Source: Actinomyces sp. zg-332
GTDB taxonomy: Bacteria; Actinomycetota; Actinomycetes; Actinomycetales; Actinomycetaceae
Assembly: GCF_011751945.2 (NCBI RefSeq)
Contig: NZ_CP064951.1
Span: 248,001-312,000, forward strand
Length of the DNA: 64,000 nt
Reading direction: 5' to 3'
The notes below the pieces were generated by a model. The model had not been told where the DNA came from. It saw only the letters and a list, made by a program, of their open reading frames with translations, and did not search any database. Position 1 is the first letter of the stretch; every line of letters begins with the position of its first letter. Shown here piece after piece: positions 51,999 through 63,906 of this stretch. Both the position numbers and the translations under genes were made by a program.

Positions 51999-53297
51999 AT
52001 GGGTAAAATGAAGAGGAAACTCAGTTTCAAATATTTTATGGGATTTTTTCTTGCATTCTTAACAATGGGAATGGTTTTTCCCACTATGGCTAATGCCGAA
52101 GATGGTGTTGGAGTAACTGTTTCTATTTTATATCAAGGAAATTTGCTTACAGTTCCTAAAGGAACAGAAGCAGCTGATAAAGTAGCCATTCCTGAAGGAT
52201 TACGCGATATACGTTTTACTTTGACAAATACAAAAGATCCTAGTAAAACTTACACTACTACACTAAATAGGGGTAATGCTGGTTTCCCATATACAGGTGC
52301 ATTCACAGAGTATCCTAAAACAGTTCCATTTGGCGACTATACTTTGAGAGCAGATAACTATGATGCTGATAAGTATGAAGTTTATGGTCTAGGTAGACCA
52401 CAAGTTAGAGACTTTAGAGTAAAAGTTGGGAAAAATACTCCTAACCAGCTAGTAGGTATTTGGGCAAAAAAGACTATTCAAGGAATAGTTAGCGTTGATG
52501 GTAAAGAAATAGTTACAAAAGATCCTTCTGTAATTCCAGAATCTGCACTTCCTAAAGAACTAATAGGAACTACTGTAACATTGACTAAAGGTTCCGAATC
52601 ATGGACAGGAACTTTAAATAAAGCTACAGCTGATGGAAAATTGTCTTTAGATTTTGGTAATACACTATTTTCTTCAGGTAAATATGATGTAAAAATCAAT
52701 TTCCCTAAGAATGTTACCCAAATATATAAGTACACAGGACCTACTTCTCTTTTAGCATCATATGACAAAGACACCTGGGATATACCTATGACATTTGAAA
52801 AAATTGATTCAGAAAAGTATAACCCAACTTACCCTAGCGAAGGTGTAAAGGCTGAGAAAGAAAGTACAACAGAAGCTGATGTTTCAGTTCCTGAAGGACA
52901 ACAATTACCTGATGGAACTACCTTTACTCCTGCTGGTAACGTTCCTGGCTGGGTAAATATTGATAAAAAAACTGGAAAAGTTACCCTAACTCCTGGACGT
53001 GATGTAGAAGTTGGTGAACATCCTGTTACTGTTACTGTCACATATCCAGATGGCTCAACTAAAGATATTGTTCTAAAAGTAAAAGTTGTTGAAAAACCAA
53101 AGGCTGATGAAAAATCAAATGCTGATGAAAAATCAAAGACACAAATAGATTCTTCAAAATCTGGTGTTAAAAAAGTTAAGCTTCAGAAACGAAGCGCTTT
53201 GGCAAGCACAGGTATCAACGACTTATTCATGCTACTTACCCTAGGAGCTGGTACTCTAGCTGCAGGAATGTACTTGAAAAAGACTGTTAAGAAGTAA
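51999..53297 (+). CDS. Sortase-anchored surface protein with Rib-type domain and LASTG signal
   Basis: A 432-residue exported protein. Signal peptide: MGKMKRKLSFKYFMGFFLAF with cleavage after MANA (residue about 34). The middle resembles Cna-B-like folds (FTLTNTKDPSKTYTTTLNRG and GTTVTLTKGSESWTGTLNKA look like two repeats of the same module). Residues about 285-370 form a Rib/alpha-like domain (VSVPEGQQLPDGTTFTPAGN and VTVTVTYPDGSTKDIVLKV). A charged linker with repeated KADEKSNADEKS precedes LASTG, a hydrophobic stretch and KKTVKK. AAGGAG precedes the ATG. Probably an adhesin. Confidence 0.88.
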   Translation: MGKMKRKLSFKYFMGFFLAFLTMGMVFPTMANAEDGVGVTVSILYQGNLLTVPKGTEAADKVAIPEGLRDIRFTLTNTKDPSKTYTTTLNRGNAGFPYTGAFTEYPKTVPFGDYTLRADNYDADKYEVYGLGRPQVRDFRVKVGKNTPNQLVGIWAKKTIQGIVSVDGKEIVTKDPSVIPESALPKELIGTTVTLTKGSESWTGTLNKATADGKLSLDFGNTLFSSGKYDVKINFPKNVTQIYKYTGPTSLLASYDKDTWDIPMTFEKIDSEKYNPTYPSEGVKAEKESTTEADVSVPEGQQLPDGTTFTPAGNVPGWVNIDKKTGKVTLTPGRDVEVGEHPVTVTVTYPDGSTKDIVLKVKVVEKPKADEKSNADEKSKTQIDSSKSGVKKVKLQKRSALASTGINDLFMLLTLGAGTLAAGMYLKKTVKK

Positions 53298-57532: not shown

Positions 57533-60500
57533 GTGTCACCATTATTGTTTTCAAGAGGTAATTCACGCAAACGTGAAGAAAATAACGAAGTAGAAACAGT
57601 AGAGCCAGTTTTTTCTCCTGAACAGCTCCGTGCTGAAAATATTAGTGCTGCCCTTGACAATTGGATAAGCAAGATCGAAAAATCTAGTTTAGGCAACGCT
57701 CTATCAAATATATCTATACTAGGTGAAAACATTATCGACATTACAATGGCTCATCCATCTGGTATTGCACAACTCTATAGTGATAGACCTACACCTTTAT
57801 CTAATATTATCCGTGAACATGATATGTTGGCTCGCACTCGCGTAAAAGCTCGTTTAGTACATAGTGAAGCTGACACGATTTCCCAAAAACATGGTGTATG
57901 CCCAACTTACTTAGCAATAGGTTTAGGGCGTTGGGTAGATAAAGCTGAAGAAGGTAAAGTAGTTAATAGATATGCACCTGTGTTATTGCGTCAAATTTCG
58001 TTAAACACTGGTAGTGGCGATGATATAGTATTTTCTTTAGAGGATTCTTTGGAAATAAATCCAGTACTACTTGAATCGTTTAGAAAAGCAGGGGTGGTAT
58101 TTGACCCTACAGAAATAATACGGTTAGCTTCTGTGAACCAAGGTTTTTCTCCTAAAAATGCACTAGATAGAATATCTCAAATAGCTAAAGAAACATTCGA
58201 TTATTTCGTTTTAGAAGATAAATTACTCGTAGCTTCTTTCACATCACCATCGCAAATACTTATAGATGATTTAAACGAACTGAGATCTAAAGCCATATCA
58301 TCAACTTTAGTTGGAGCTTTAGCTGGAAATGAAAGTGATATACAAGAGCTATCCAAACCTCTTTTAGATCCTAACCCACTTGACCGTAAACCAAACTTAG
58401 AACGTGGCATTGGAGACCTTGATCCAGTGCACCAAGATGTATTGGACAACGTTTCTAGAGGAACTTCAATGGTTGTTGACTGTCCGCCTGGTAGTGACAA
58501 ACTAAGCATGATTGTTTCTTTAATGGTTGACTCAGCATTACAAGGACGTACAGTCTTATATGTGCCAGGAACCTCGCGTATCGGTAAAGAAGTCGTCGAA
58601 GAGTTCAAAAAACACGAATTAGACGAGTTTGTGATGAATGCTGTTAGTGTTAATAAGTGGCGTAATAATATTGCTGACGGTTTGAAATATGCTCTATCAC
58701 GTCAAGAAAAAAGCTACGATAAAGCAGCTGTAAATGGTGTACGTTTAAGGCTAGAACAAGCTAGATCGCAACTGGGAGAATACACTGCTCGTCTACACAA
58801 AATTCGTAAACCATGGAATGTGTCTGCTTGGGAAGCTCTGCAAGCATTAACTGATTTAACATCAGCTAACCCAGGACCTCGCACTTGTGTTCGTTTTACA
58901 CCAGAAGTTTTGTCTCATTTGAGTGAAGATAGTTGCAAGTCAGCACGACAAATACTAGCTAAAGCTTGTGATTTACAGATATTCTCACAACGCAAAGTAG
59001 ATAATGCTTGGTATGGGGCTGTGCTAACTAATGATAACGCTGTTGAAGGTCTACTTGAATGCGTTGCTCGTCTATGTGAGGAGACTTTGCCTACTATCCA
59101 GCGTCATATTGCTATGGTTGCTGCTGATACGGGGTTAACGCCTGCTGACTCATTTGAAGCATGGGAACATCAACTTGAACTACTTCAAGGTGTTGCTTCT
59201 TGTCTTGAAATTTTCCAGCCTCAAATATTTGAAAATAGTGCTGCTGATATGGTTATTGCTACTTCTTCTAAGCAATGGCGTAAGGAACACTGCATAAATA
59301 TGAAACTAGGAGCTCGTCGTGCTTTGGTACGTCAAGCTAAAAGTTTAGTTCGTTCAGGTGTGAATGTGGTTGACTTAAATGCTGAGCTGATTCGTGTTCA
59401 AGAAAAACGTGAAATTTGGAAGAAATATGCTTCAAATGACACCAGCTATCCTCGACTACCAGTTGGGTTAGATAAAATCCAAGAAGTATTATCTAACGCA
59501 CGAGCAGATATGAATAAGCTAATTTCAGTTCTAGGCTCAGCCCATCATGATATCGAAATTATGCCTTTAAATGAACTTATATCTTTGCTAAATGACTTAA
59601 AGTCAGATCGCACAAATGCTTTCTTACTACCTGCTCGTGTACGTGTGTTGAAAGAGTTACATGACAATGGGTTGGACGAATTAGTAGAGGATTTACGTGC
59701 AAGAAATGTTAGTAATGACATTGTTGCCAGTGAACTAGAACTTGCTTGGTGGGCTTCTGTACTTGGAGCTATTTTGTTAGAAGATCCACAGCTAGCAGGT
59801 TACGATGGTCAATCTTTACAGACTTTGGCTTATCAACTTCGACAGCTAGATAAAGCGCAAGTTAACTCACTTACTATACATGCTCGAACAGAGCTAAATA
59901 ACCGTTCATGTGTATTTGTAAAAGACCGTCAAAACGAAGCTATACAGTTATTTGAAGCTTTAGATTTATCTGCTGGTTTGCAAACTGTTCGTGAATTGTT
60001 ATCAGCTTTTCCAATTACCAGAGTTTTGCAGCCAATGATTGTAAGCCCTCCTATGATTGTTCCACAAATAATGGGAGCGGATTACAACTTAGATTTATTA
60101 GTCTTAGACAGTACTAATTTTATGTCTATGGCTGAGCTTATTCCATTGATAGCTAGGGCAAAACAAGTTGTTATAGTCACAGACACTAAGACAAGTTCTG
60201 ACTGCGAAATTGCTGACTTGATTTCCTTATTGCCAAGTATTGTTTTGCCAAGTTCTCAAGGTAAATACAACGAGGACTTATTAGCCTTTATGTCTAAGTA
60301 CGGCTACGGGGATAAAATTCAGGCTGTACCTTTGCCACGTCCATCAAGCAATGTATCTTTACACATGGTTGATGCTGTAGGTATTCCTTCTTCTGGTAAA
60401 GGGGCTGTTGAAAGCTCATCACAAGAAGTAAATAGAGTAGTTGATTTAGTTATTGATCATGCTTTAGCTTATCCTGAAAAGTCTTTGGCAGTTGTTGCGC

Positions 60501-61579
60501 TGAACGAATCTCATGCAAATCGTATTCGTGAGAGTGTACGAGCAGTAGCTAAGGAAAATAGGGCAGTTGAAGCTTTCTTTGCTGAAGAAAAAGAAGAAGC
60601 TTTTGTCGTAACTGATATATCTTTGACTTCTGGTCTGCACCGAGACATCGTGATTTTAGCAGTTGGATATACTAAGACTCCTAACGGTAAGCTACTTCAC
60701 GAATTTGGAGTTATTTCTCAGCAAGGTGGACAGGTTCACTTGGTCTCAGCACTTGAATGCGCTATCGAAAGAGTGATAGTTGTTTCTAGTGTTACACCTG
60801 AAGAAATACTTTCAGGGTATGTTTCATCTGATGGTGGAACTATGCTTGCTGATGTTATAGCTTGGGCTGGAAATAGCGAAGAGTTCAAGAAAATGTCTGA
60901 TGAAGAGGCTGAGTTATCTCAAAAGCCTGATAGGTTACTTGTAGATTTGGCTGATAGATTGTGGCGTTTAGGACTTCGTGTAGAGGCGAACTTAGGCGGT
61001 AATTCTAGATTTAGGATTCCTCTAGCTATTGGACATCCTCAGTTACCAGATGAATACTTGGTTGCTTTGCTAACTGATGATAGTCGTTACGTGATGGAAT
61101 CTAGTATGCGTAGACGTGAGCGTCACTGGGTTGAGCGTTTACAAAATCGTGGTTGGAAAGTTAGTACTGTATTCTCCACAGCTGTATTTATGGATCCACA
61201 GGGACAAGCTGAGGAAATTTTAGAAATAGTTTTAGCTGCTCTAAAGACGCGTATAAGTGAAATAGAAAAGGCAAAAGCTAAGGTGCTGAATGCTAATAAA
61301 GCTATTTCGATTCCAGTTGAAGAGGTGCCTGCAGTTTCTACAGCTTCAATTGAAATAAACTTGAAGCGTGGACCGCGTCCACCAATTGCGCAGGGATTGC
61401 CTTTGGCTGCTTATGGAGACGATCAGCTTGATGATTTGTTGGCTTGGATTTTGTCAGATGGAGTTGAATACACGGAAGATGAAGTAGTTGAACAGTTGCG
61501 TAAAGCTTTAGCTTTGACTCGCAAGGGTGCTCAAGTTGATGCCGTACTGAGGCATGTTGTAAAACGTGGTATGAAGTAG
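57533..61579 (+). CDS. Giant DUF4011/SF1-helicase-like protein with eroded ATPase motifs
   Basis: A 1348-residue protein resembling large DUF4011 helicases (N-terminal DUF4011-like segment, residues about 30-270; split SF1 core; nuclease-like and small C-terminal domains). Every ATPase motif I can place is altered: Walker A is CPPGSDKLS (317-325) instead of GPPGTGKS; Walker B is VLDSTN (around 859) instead of DEAS/Q; the next motif reads VTDTKTSS (883) instead of GDxxQ; motif V is SGLHRD (1033-1038) where GDERD is expected; motif VI is VHLVSALECAIERVIVVSS (1068) where an RxxVAxTRA core is expected. A Vsr-like nuclease segment (1177-1225: LLTDDSRY, NRGWKVSTVFSTAVF) lacks the usual IECDG glutamate. 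The frame is intact. GTG start after GGCGAG. Role unknown. Confidence 0.75.
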   Translation: MSPLLFSRGNSRKREENNEVETVEPVFSPEQLRAENISAALDNWISKIEKSSLGNALSNISILGENIIDITMAHPSGIAQLYSDRPTPLSNIIREHDMLARTRVKARLVHSEADTISQKHGVCPTYLAIGLGRWVDKAEEGKVVNRYAPVLLRQISLNTGSGDDIVFSLEDSLEINPVLLESFRKAGVVFDPTEIIRLASVNQGFSPKNALDRISQIAKETFDYFVLEDKLLVASFTSPSQILIDDLNELRSKAISSTLVGALAGNESDIQELSKPLLDPNPLDRKPNLERGIGDLDPVHQDVLDNVSRGTSMVVDCPPGSDKLSMIVSLMVDSALQGRTVLYVPGTSRIGKEVVEEFKKHELDEFVMNAVSVNKWRNNIADGLKYALSRQEKSYDKAAVNGVRLRLEQARSQLGEYTARLHKIRKPWNVSAWEALQALTDLTSANPGPRTCVRFTPEVLSHLSEDSCKSARQILAKACDLQIFSQRKVDNAWYGAVLTNDNAVEGLLECVARLCEETLPTIQRHIAMVAADTGLTPADSFEAWEHQLELLQGVASCLEIFQPQIFENSAADMVIATSSKQWRKEHCINMKLGARRALVRQAKSLVRSGVNVVDLNAELIRVQEKREIWKKYASNDTSYPRLPVGLDKIQEVLSNARADMNKLISVLGSAHHDIEIMPLNELISLLNDLKSDRTNAFLLPARVRVLKELHDNGLDELVEDLRARNVSNDIVASELELAWWASVLGAILLEDPQLAGYDGQSLQTLAYQLRQLDKAQVNSLTIHARTELNNRSCVFVKDRQNEAIQLFEALDLSAGLQTVRELLSAFPITRVLQPMIVSPPMIVPQIMGADYNLDLLVLDSTNFMSMAELIPLIARAKQVVIVTDTKTSSDCEIADLISLLPSIVLPSSQGKYNEDLLAFMSKYGYGDKIQAVPLPRPSSNVSLHMVDAVGIPSSGKGAVESSSQEVNRVVDLVIDHALAYPEKSLAVVALNESHANRIRESVRAVAKENRAVEAFFAEEKEEAFVVTDISLTSGLHRDIVILAVGYTKTPNGKLLHEFGVISQQGGQVHLVSALECAIERVIVVSSVTPEEILSGYVSSDGGTMLADVIAWAGNSEEFKKMSDEEAELSQKPDRLLVDLADRLWRLGLRVEANLGGNSRFRIPLAIGHPQLPDEYLVALLTDDSRYVMESSMRRRERHWVERLQNRGWKVSTVFSTAVFMDPQGQAEEILEIVLAALKTRISEIEKAKAKVLNANKAISIPVEEVPAVSTASIEINLKRGPRPPIAQGLPLAAYGDDQLDDLLAWILSDGVEYTEDEVVEQLRKALALTRKGAQVDAVLRHVVKRGMK

Positions 61580-61587
61580 GAATTACG

Positions 61588-61956
61588 TTGAATAAGGCAA
61601 GAAAACACAAGAGAGTAATAGCTTTATCTAAAGTTGATCTTGCCTTAAAAGAATCTGTGAATAAAACTGAAGCTGATATTGTTGCGTGTAATTTATCGTC
61701 TGATACTAGTTTACGTAACTCTGTTTTAAAAGAAAAAACTTTGGAAATAGGGAAATCTGAATTAAGGTTTGGTAAAAATACTTCTGGAAAAGTAAAAAAT
61801 GATACTTCTAAAGTATGTGCTGATAATAAAATTATGAAAAGTAAAACTATCACGCATAGAAAAAGTGATAAAAATACTACTAAACCTAATAGGCAACTTA
61901 GTGAAAATGAAAAATTTATATTAGAACAATGTCCACCTCATTTCGGTAAGATTTAA
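61588..61956 (+). CDS. Small basic protein coupled to the helicase-like gene
   Basis: A 122-residue Lys/Ser/Asn-rich, mostly disordered protein with a distinctive C-terminus, SENEKFILEQCPPHFGKI. I recall actinobacterial small proteins ending in a similar E-W-I-L-x-Q-R-P-P-H-W/Y motif, which would make this the conserved part. The TTG start lies eight bases after the stop of the 1348-residue gene, and the ribosome binding site (TAGGA) overlaps that stop, so translation is coupled and a joint function is likely. Confidence 0.65.
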   Translation: MNKARKHKRVIALSKVDLALKESVNKTEADIVACNLSSDTSLRNSVLKEKTLEIGKSELRFGKNTSGKVKNDTSKVCADNKIMKSKTITHRKSDKNTTKPNRQLSENEKFILEQCPPHFGKI

Positions 61957-62310: not shown

Positions 62311-62901
62311 TTAGAACCACTTAGTTTTCTTTAAAGAAATACCATCGTATATGTGTGTCATTTTTATGTCGTGACTTTCTTGAGGAATTATGCCTTGTTC
62401 AGGTACTTCCCAATCATATACGGTTGCTATAAGTGATATATTTTCCTGAGCATATAACAAAGCCTGATCGTACCAGCCTCCACCTTGGCCCAGACGTACT
62501 CCCTTGTTATCGCAGGCTAAAGCAGGAACTATAATTGCTTGGGCTTCTTCAATTGCCTCAGCGTCTAATATTTCAGTGTCACATACGGAAGGAACTTTGC
62601 CTGGACCGTTGCTTAGTAAAGCAGCTCCAGCTGTGTATTCACTCCATTTTGGATACTTACCATTAGAAATTGAAGGTACAATTATTTTTACGCCTTTATT
62701 AGATAAGAAATCTAGCAGTTGTACTGTAGGAGGTTCTATCCCGTATGATAAATAAGCTCCTACACACTTAAAATTTTTCAATTGTGTGCCAAGACTTTTT
62801 ATCATTGAACTACCATAAGAATAAGCTACATGTTGGGCATATTTTGCCCTTTTACTCTTATAATGTTGGCGTAGTTCAGCCTTAGTTTGTTGTACTGACA
62901 T
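62311..62901 (-). CDS. 5-formyltetrahydrofolate cyclo-ligase
   Basis: A 196-residue enzyme (MTHFS, YgfA family) converting 5-formyl-THF to 5,10-methenyl-THF with ATP. The N-terminal KAELRQHYKSKRAKY is typical; VGAYLSYGIEPPTVQLL and VPALACDNKGVRLGQGGGWYDQAL (residues about 125-148) form the substrate and ATP site. GGAGA precedes the ATG. It adds to the one-carbon genes glyA and folD elsewhere in the window and is divergent from galU, its usual actinobacterial neighbour. Confidence 0.95.
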   Translation of the reverse strand: MSVQQTKAELRQHYKSKRAKYAQHVAYSYGSSMIKSLGTQLKNFKCVGAYLSYGIEPPTVQLLDFLSNKGVKIIVPSISNGKYPKWSEYTAGAALLSNGPGKVPSVCDTEILDAEAIEEAQAIIVPALACDNKGVRLGQGGGWYDQALLYAQENISLIATVYDWEVPEQGIIPQESHDIKMTHIYDGISLKKTKWF

Positions 62902-62991: not shown

Positions 62992-63906
62992 ATGAATAGT
63001 AAGATTTCGAAAATTAAGCATGCAGTTATTCCAGCTGCTGGGCGTGGAACTAGGTTTTTACCAGCCACTAAAGTAATGCCTAAAGAGATGTTGCCTATAG
63101 TTGATAAACCAGGCATTCAGTACGTTATTGAAGAAGCATCTAGTTGTGGTATCAAAGACTTATTACTGATAACGCGCTATGGAAAAAACTCTATTGAAGA
63201 CCATTTTGACTCAATTTCTGATTTAGAAGACGCTTTACAAGCTAAAGGTGATTTTGCAACTCTGGAGAAAATAACTAATACTGCTGCTGGTATTAAAGTT
63301 GCATCTGTTAGACAGGGTAGGCCACTTGGATTAGGACACGCTGTTTTGCAAGCGGCAGGACACATTGGAGATAATCCTTTTGCTGTAATGTTGCCAGACG
63401 ATCTTATGCACCCAGAAGATCCTGTATTAGAGCTGATGACACGTGTACATGAACGCCTTGGGGGAAGCGTTGTAGCATTGCTTGAAGTTACTCCGCAAGA
63501 AGCTACTGCTTATGGAAATGCTGATGTTGAAATAATAGATTTTAGTGAAGATTCACTTAAAGATCGTGTATTTGAAATTTCAGACTTAGTTGAAAAACCA
63601 TCTATATCTGAAGTCCGTTCAAAATATGCTGTGGTAGGACGCTACATTTTAGATCCTTCGGTTTTCAAAATTCTAGAAACTTTGCCTCCTGGCTGTGGTG
63701 GAGAAATTCAACTCACAGATGCCTTGAGTGTTATGGCCTCTAGACCGAAAGAAGAAGGTGGCGGTTTATATGGTGTAGTAATACGCGGTCGTCGTTTTGA
63801 TACTGGAACACCATATGGTTACTTGCAAACTATTGTTTCTTTGGCAGTTGAGAATGAAAACTTTGGTGAATCTTTTAATGCATGGCTGAAAGATTTTGTG
63901 AGGTGA
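62992..63906 (+). CDS. galU: UTP-glucose-1-phosphate uridylyltransferase
   Basis: A 304-residue nucleotidyltransferase making UDP-glucose. The N-terminal HAVIPAAGRGTRFLPATKVMPKEMLPIVDKP (in one stretch in the protein, residues 9-39) is the nucleotide loop with catalytic Arg and Lys; FAVMLPDDLM binds metal and VVEKPS-type DLVEKPS contacts sugar. AAGGG precedes the ATG. UDP-glucose feeds the UDP-glucose dehydrogenase at 26194. The next gene begins five bases after the stop. Confidence 0.96.
   Translation: MNSKISKIKHAVIPAAGRGTRFLPATKVMPKEMLPIVDKPGIQYVIEEASSCGIKDLLLITRYGKNSIEDHFDSISDLEDALQAKGDFATLEKITNTAAGIKVASVRQGRPLGLGHAVLQAAGHIGDNPFAVMLPDDLMHPEDPVLELMTRVHERLGGSVVALLEVTPQEATAYGNADVEIIDFSEDSLKDRVFEISDLVEKPSISEVRSKYAVVGRYILDPSVFKILETLPPGCGGEIQLTDALSVMASRPKEEGGGLYGVVIRGRRFDTGTPYGYLQTIVSLAVENENFGESFNAWLKDFVR

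Follow-up and report, generated by a model that had tools for sequence, protein, structure and literature searches.

What can a helicase-like protein do once the residues for ATP hydrolysis and for cleavage have been replaced? The question is posed by a 64,000-nucleotide stretch of Actinomyces sp. zg-332 (contig NZ_CP064951.1, positions 248,001 to 312,000 of the forward strand), called the window here, in which the gene at positions 57533-61579 encodes a protein of 1348 residues. Judged from sequence and a predicted model, the protein is a divergent DUF4011 / Upf1-like superfamily 1 (SF1) helicase that also carries a nuclease domain of the Vsr type (MTES_1575). Our best reading, to which we assign a probability of about one half, is of a pseudohelicase-pseudonuclease with anti-phage enzymes among its relatives, which would, by analogy with other inactive helicases, bind nucleic acid independently of ATP and act as a scaffold or a recognition protein. 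The gene and its parts are as follows (window positions; evidence in brackets).

57533-61579, + strand: complete gene for a pseudohelicase-pseudonuclease of the DUF4011 / MTES_1575 family, 1348 residues (open reading frame, Pfam, relatives)
57716-58102, + strand: DUF4011-like N-terminal domain, about residues 62-190 (Pfam DUF4011 match at residues 107-181, slightly under the cut-off; conserved block HPSGxAQLY)
58481-58507, + strand: degenerate Walker A, residues 317-325, CPPGSDKLS, with Asp at the Gly322 position and Leu at the Ser/Thr324 position (alignment)
60101-60118, + strand: degenerate motif II (Walker B), residues 857-862, VLDSTN, catalytic Glu replaced by Ser860 (alignment)
60176-60193, + strand: degenerate motif III, residues 882-887, VTDTKT, Gln replaced by Thr887 (alignment)
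60629-60646, + strand: altered motif V, residues 1033-1038, SGLHRD, mostly QGDERD in intact orthologues (alignment)
60746-60775, + strand: degenerate motif VI, residues 1072-1081, SALECAIERV, arginine replaced by Cys1076 (alignment)
60947-61225, + strand: Vsr-like restriction endonuclease (REase)-fold domain, residues 1139-1231, with Asp replaced by Pro1163, Glu by Leu1180, and Asp1182 kept (Pfam, model alignment, residues)
61379-61570, + strand: C-terminal three-helix domain, residues 1283-1346, at the position of the winged helix-turn-helix (wHTH)/DUF3320 region of giant relatives (model, conservation; naming from passages of PMC3710099)

The frame opens with GTG, closes with TAG, and runs for 1348 codons with no internal stop, where a shuffled frame of equal composition would be expected to hold about 93. 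Its GC content at the three codon positions (0.55/0.39/0.25) is like that of galU and lipA.

To place the motifs, 239 rows were aligned, from which 16 giant or more distant relatives were set aside to leave 223 orthologue sequences; drawn from sources that overlap, they should not be counted as independent genomes. Partial sequences (L018, L200, L201, L203, L205, L208, L218, and L224), the low-scoring L207, and duplicates had been excluded beforehand (L codes denote sampled loci or sequences, f codes sampled families, with f1 the Actinomycetaceae and f8 the Cellulomonadaceae). The motif states leave f12 and f16 uncovered, the sole row of f16 being partial, and several families are represented by one or a few rows. 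The Walker A Gly-Lys pair is kept in 18 of the 223 sequences and lost in 205. Because the intact orthologues carry Walker A at the same columns, the original positions of the motifs are fixed. At the GK[ST] positions, the window protein has D322-K323-L324, so that a lysine stands, isolated, at the lysine position. The Walker B Asp (D859) and the Gly, Arg, and Asp of motif V are retained; the catalytic Glu (S860), the motif III Gln (T887), the motif VI Arg (C1076), and the nuclease Asp (P1163) and Glu (L1180) are replaced. The nuclease residues are present in the intact orthologues (Asp in 18/18, Glu in 17/18), and in the group formed by f1, f8, f13, and f20 the Asp has become Pro in 55 of 57 sequences and the Glu has become Leu in 51 of 57. 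A third acidic residue of the nuclease domain, D1182, is kept in the window protein and in 102 of the 103 orthologues of the tree described below.

An alignment artefact, in which the motifs would lie elsewhere in the chain, can be rejected. A search of the whole window protein for [AG]xxxxGK[ST] found no match, and while 12 of the 205 lost orthologue sequences hold a Walker A pattern somewhere, Gly-Lys is absent from the motif columns in all 205. Two Varibaculum sequences, L086 and L096, resemble the window protein in having a Lys on the Walker A Lys column (PPESEKTS) with the Gly residues lost; this lysine is probably a chance reappearance. In L018 (G028), the orthologue is split over two frames of 1089 and 554 codons, through a frameshift in the gene itself or a mistake in the assembly.

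Profile searches place the protein in the family at some distance from its named members. Pfam PF18741 (REase_MTES_1575) passes its gathering cut-off over residues 1139-1231 (41.4 against 38.2 bits). PF13195 (DUF4011) misses its own (20.6 against 22.2 bits; the intact orthologue L040 scores 27.0). In the two intact orthologues scanned, L040 and L079, the matches to AAA_11, AAA_12, and MTES_1575 are strong. The NCBIfam model antiphage ProA (NF058533) matches the window protein at 4.9e-87 with 292.8 bits, below its equivalog cut-off of 1500, and Hhe (NF042953) reaches 166 bits against a cut-off of 2000. In PADLOC, the best values are 4.7e-96 for PDC-S37, shown without a curated cut-off, and 1.8e-31 for Hhe; PDC-S37 matches L040 at 1.1e-251. 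These anti-phage profile matches span the C-terminal half of the helicase, the nuclease, and the C-terminus.

The predicted structure agrees with this assignment. An AlphaFold model of residues 62-1255 (predicted local distance difference test, pLDDT, 89.2; predicted template modelling score, pTM, 0.78) has an Upf1-like fold of two RecA domains and aligns with the Upf1-RNA complex 2xzo_A at Z 16.3 over 469 residues, with a root-mean-square deviation (rmsd) of 5.0. The best Foldseek rows for this model are Aquarius, Senataxin, Dna2, and Upf1 chains, with E-values down to 2.5e-8. A second model, of residues 1120-1348 (pLDDT 87.3, pTM 0.58), realigns in its first half with 3hrl (Z 9.9, 91 residues aligned, rmsd 2.2) and with Vsr itself (1vsr, Z 7.1); weak matches to YqeY (Z 6.0) and RecX (Z 4.9) were also obtained. 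By sequence and predicted fold, then, the window protein fits a dead SF1 helicase fold and a dead nuclease fold in one chain. The initial annotation had proposed this family, and the Upf1-like and Vsr-like folds bear it out; all the motif strings that it quoted are present and, on alignment to intact orthologues, fall at the motifs named, with none found intact at other positions of the window protein. Its claim that all the motifs are changed is right for the key residues and too sweeping for K323, D859, and the Gly, Arg, and Asp of motif V, which remain.

When were these residues lost? The main tree holds 109 rows, one per genus and including six giants, was built with the motif columns removed, and does not represent f12 and f16. 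The window protein falls in a clade of 80 rows with support of 100. In this dead clade, both the Walker A Gly-Lys and the motif III Gln are found in 0/80, against 13/103 and 17/103, respectively, among all the orthologues of the tree. Other residues survive here and there in the clade: the Walker A Ser/Thr in 38/80, the Walker B DE in 2/80, the motif VI Arg in 25/80, the nuclease Asp in 11/80, and Glu or Asp at the nuclease Glu position in 17/80. From these survival counts, it follows that the Gly-Lys and the motif III Gln were lost first and the nuclease residues more patchily. By parsimony, Gly-Lys changed five times, at the base of the 80-row clade, three times within f17, and once in f38 plus f25, where the Walker A Lys became mostly Arg. 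A 48-row tree under a mixture model gives four changes, with two losses within f17 in place of three. A single origin of all the losses in the order is rejected by the approximately unbiased (AU) test at p-AU 0.00056, for a group that was named after the first tree had been seen. Decay confined to one lineage is likewise rejected, the same loss being present in all 27 correctly framed relatives (29 shown) and in every row of the dead clade. The Walker A Gly-Lys was thus lost once at the base of an 80-genus clade to which the window protein belongs, with a minimum of three further losses elsewhere. Intact members at the same locus, together with the outgroups, indicate an ancestor with the ATPase motifs of an Upf1-like SF1 helicase and a Vsr-type nuclease.

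The gene belongs to an orthologous family that spans its order, mostly at one locus. In a first sample, all 59 genomes had a family match at E<=0.001. At E<=1e-80, profile matches were counted in 242 of 248 genomes of the order, representing 85 of 86 genera and all 20 families sampled (230 of 233 near-complete genomes); one giant relative scored 5e-93, near that cut-off, and two genomes scored no better than 2e-88 and 3e-89. A phylum-wide search at E<=1e-60 matched 19 of 246 genomes, of which six belong to the order and some were matched through other family members, and a search of the class at E<=0.001 matched 87 of 296, giants included. A separate scan found relatives in Actinomycetaceae, Cellulomonas, Georgenia, Ruania, Mobiluncus, and others. 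The gene is retained in three f3 genomes of only 0.8, 0.9, and 1.1 Mb. One orthologue, L083, comes from a record titled Tissierella sp. Marseille-P2918. It is about 85% identical to L008 of f1 and lies in an Actinomycetaceae-type neighbourhood. Tissierella belongs to a different phylum, and the assembly is probably mislabelled or contaminated.

The neighbourhood was scored by the presence near the gene of at least one marker among mscL, a zinc-ribbon gene (putatively FmdB-like), a SAF-domain gene, 5-formyltetrahydrofolate cyclo-ligase (5FCL), galU, moeA, rimJ, and penicillin amidase. A marker was found at 35 of 39 sampled loci of the order, being missed at one of the two f6 loci and at every one of the three f11 loci, and at 3/3 loci of f38; outside these, at loci of f25, f36, f45, f59, f70, f79, and f89, among which there are short contigs, the count was 0/7. 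The same locus holds intact members (f4 and six f17 genera) and dead members (four f17 genera and the other families). In the window, 5FCL and galU follow directly downstream, and mscL and the zinc-ribbon gene were not found at the locus:

62311-62901, - strand: 5FCL, in the conserved neighbourhood (Pfam/NCBIfam, synteny)
62992-63906, + strand: galU; moeA and rimJ come next, outside the window (Pfam/NCBIfam, synteny)

Directly downstream of the gene, where relatives often have mscL, lies a 122-codon frame (61588-61953, + strand) with a weak FtsJ methyltransferase match (2.7e-4, 21.4 against 24.1 bits), which may be a remnant. Further upstream, at 51999-53297 on the + strand, the window encodes a probable surface protein of 432 residues, in which Rib / YPDG repeats make up a long domain.

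Is the dead protein under selection? The ratio of non-synonymous to synonymous change (dN/dS) was estimated by the NG86 method for 40 non-overlapping pairs out of 106 at 78-97% identity. The 36 dead pairs, among which L086/L096 was counted since its Gly residues are lost despite the Lys on the column, gave 0.046-0.302 with a median of 0.135, and the four intact pairs gave 0.132-0.251. The dead orthologues are therefore under purifying selection. The evolutionary rate of the window protein is not raised: scaled to MoeA plus RimJ, its distances give a ratio of 1.24 over 12 pairs, compared with 1.49 +/- 0.25 for 66 pairs among relatives. Within the protein, the pressure has shifted. Between the intact orthologues and the f1/f8/f13/f20 group, relative divergence rises from 0.80 to 1.00 in the Walker A segment (residues 286-400) and from 0.72 to 1.00 in the 1A C-part, and it falls from 0.97 (0.92-1.02) to 0.80 (0.71-0.89) in the nuclease domain. 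In this most eroded group, the ATPase core relaxed while the dead nuclease domain grew relatively more conserved, which points to a binding role for the dead nuclease face. The initial annotation had argued that ATP-driven unwinding is lost and that selection acts on something else, and purifying selection on the dead orthologues, the unraised rate, and order-wide retention all speak for it; the shared motif loss, the low dN/dS ratios, and the helicase fold that it suggested looking for were found. The ancestral loss, spread over most of the order, goes beyond what it had claimed.

Comparison with known proteins helps to define what such a molecule might be. The giant MTES_1575-type relatives are already known and, in passages of PMC3710099, are described as combining HEPN, transglutaminase, SF1 helicase, Vsr REase, and two wHTH domains. 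With these giants, ProA, Hhe, and PDC-S37, the window protein shares the order helicase, Vsr nuclease, C-terminal region. It is shorter than the giants examined (L061-L072), whose frames run from 1731 to 2433 codons, one of them cut by the end of the locus, and it lies far below the ProA and Hhe equivalog cut-offs. The giants have the ATPase motifs in 12/12, the nuclease Asp in 12/12, and the Glu in 6/12, residues that the window protein is without. In L061-L065 and L069, the ATPase motifs are intact and the nuclease Glu is lost; their nuclease may be altered too. The intact orthologues of f4 and of part of f17 (e.g., L040 and L033), which occupy that same locus, have a similar length, the same neighbourhood and, for L040, the same domains, but unlike the window protein they carry the ATPase and nuclease residues.

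A comparable logic is found in proteins whose catalytic folds have been kept for recognition or guidance after their sites were lost. RecC has a dead nuclease domain and can guide DNA (PMC1185551), and AddB and RecC have dead SF1 helicase domains that can recognise DNA (passages of PMC4824097). This likeness is one of analogy, not of homology to RecC. The Foldseek rows of the window model include one AddAB chain, 4cej_A (E 8.8e-5, but TM-score 0.20). RecC and AddB belong to the UvrD/Rep-like SF1A lineage and work in an obligate complex with RecB or AddA; the window protein differs in being Upf1-like with a Vsr-like nuclease, and its partner is only presumed. PriA of Deinococcus radiodurans, a bacterial protein conserved in other respects, has likewise lost its helicase motifs across a lineage, and this pseudohelicase still binds DNA (PMC4504706). 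The closest solved folds are the SF1B helicases UPF1, SMUBP-2, DNA2, Sen1, and Aquarius, at about 8-17% identity among the matches listed. These are active ATPases without a Vsr domain; PriA, for its part, has DnaB as its partner, belongs to a different helicase superfamily, and lacks a nuclease domain, which sets it apart from the window protein. In Pseudomonas aeruginosa, a large DUF4011 core gene flanks a defence hotspot in every isolate (passages of PMC10250203).

It is tempting to propose, from these analogies, that the selected activity never needed ATP hydrolysis or cleavage. Repeated loss of the ATPase at one locus where the gene was kept suggests that the activity under selection was already ATP-independent in the ancestor. 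Nucleic acid, or a complex containing it, would most likely be bound in the cleft of the former helicase and on the face of the dead nuclease, and the pseudohelicase would serve another machine as its scaffold or recognition subunit, just as dead helicase domains are put to use in RecC and AddB, and a dead nuclease domain in RecC. Since the window genome has no second family member at E<=0.001 (the gene itself is the single match), the working partner would come from another protein family. For the same reason, the idea of an inactive partner to an intact paralogue in the same cell is not supported.

Several observations weigh against a scaffold or recognition role of this kind, which is put forward by analogy, with nucleic-acid binding by the dead members only predicted. 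Dead-clade members with the Walker A Ser/Thr or the motif VI Arg might still bind nucleotide. The intact set used for comparison is small (18) and covers more lineages. Whole-model TM-scores from Foldseek are low and, normalised by query length, do not exceed 0.29 among the matches listed, and Foldseek on the C-terminal model gave no match at E<=0.001; the three-helix domain at that end is absent or unaligned in most orthologues, intact and dead, of f17, f19, f5, f3, f20, and others. As to selection, the window protein is in none of the dN/dS pairs, and its low rate ratio could come from saturation, marker distances being 0.94 against 0.69 in relatives. The tightening of the nuclease domain is weak in f3/f9 (0.90) and missing (0.99) from a 50-sequence group without the Lys but with motif VI, and the divergence intervals come from resampling related sequences. 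Lastly, the eight conserved neighbours named above suggest no functional link.

Four other explanations have to be set against the scaffold reading. The one that we regard as unlikely, yet the strongest of the four, is domesticated immunity, in which the dead protein would still take part in anti-phage defence as a sensor, guard, or decoy, recognising phage DNA or a phage protein without enzymatic activity. Its attraction is that the nearest curated models are defence proteins or candidates (PDC-S37 and Hhe in PADLOC, antiphage_ProA in NCBIfam). Defence genes, however, are usually patchy and mobile, whereas this one stands mostly at one locus beside housekeeping genes, is matched in nearly every sampled genome of the order, and has been kept in genomes of 0.8-1.1 Mb; the defence-decoy role that the initial annotation entertained beside a scaffold and a nucleic-acid-binding platform is weakened by that fixed neighbourhood and by retention in those three small genomes. 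Somewhat less probable again is a nucleotide switch, a site that binds nucleotide without hydrolysing it and changes shape on binding. Lys323 and Asp859 at their Walker A and Walker B positions are what such a site might use, and GTGxT and the motif VI Arg persist in many dead relatives, but in the window protein Asp322 and Leu324 flank the lysine, Gly-Lys is missing throughout the dead clade, and the Walker A segment has become more divergent.

Enzymatic activity through a non-canonical active site, for example around Asp1182, appears improbable. The near-invariance of that residue would fit, as would the strong conservation of the RIPLAIGHPDLPGELLVAVLTDD stretch in the dead group. Moreover, the Glu alone is also replaced in 6/12 giants with intact ATPase motifs, and for this reason its loss by itself is no proof of a dead nuclease. 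The argument against such a site comes from the Asp, present in every intact orthologue and giant, which is Pro in the window protein and in almost all of the f1/f8/f13/f20 group, where Leu mostly takes the place of the Glu as well. That the frame is a decaying pseudogene or a chance opening has a negligible probability: nothing beyond the motif loss itself was found in its favour, against a frame clear of the stops expected after shuffling, dN/dS in relatives well below 1, a window lineage whose rate is not raised, and retention across the order.

A bolder version of the scaffold reading is offered tentatively, as distinctly less probable than the scaffold role alone. In this version, an anti-phage-type enzyme would have been captured at the mscL-galU locus and stripped of its activities repeatedly and in parallel, in a housekeeping role that never needed them. 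The result would be an order-wide core, possibly essential, pseudohelicase-pseudonuclease, now the dedicated nucleic-acid recognition subunit (RecC-like, or a HelD-like factor) of an undescribed complex for chromosome or transcription maintenance. In the literature on the DUF4011/MTES_1575 family and on inactive helicases, with subscription journals mostly outside coverage, we found no description of a dead order-wide subfamily.

A gene that is matched in nearly every sampled genome of a large order, stands mostly at one locus, and has lost the residues of both its sites strongly suggests a housekeeping function that has gone unrecognised. Names drawn from the family, such as "helicase" or "anti-phage", would be misleading for the dead members. 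Because a single family, f17, has both intact and dead orthologues at this locus, an ATP-independent role can be tested there directly; if it is true, a defence-type enzyme would have turned into a core non-enzymatic protein.

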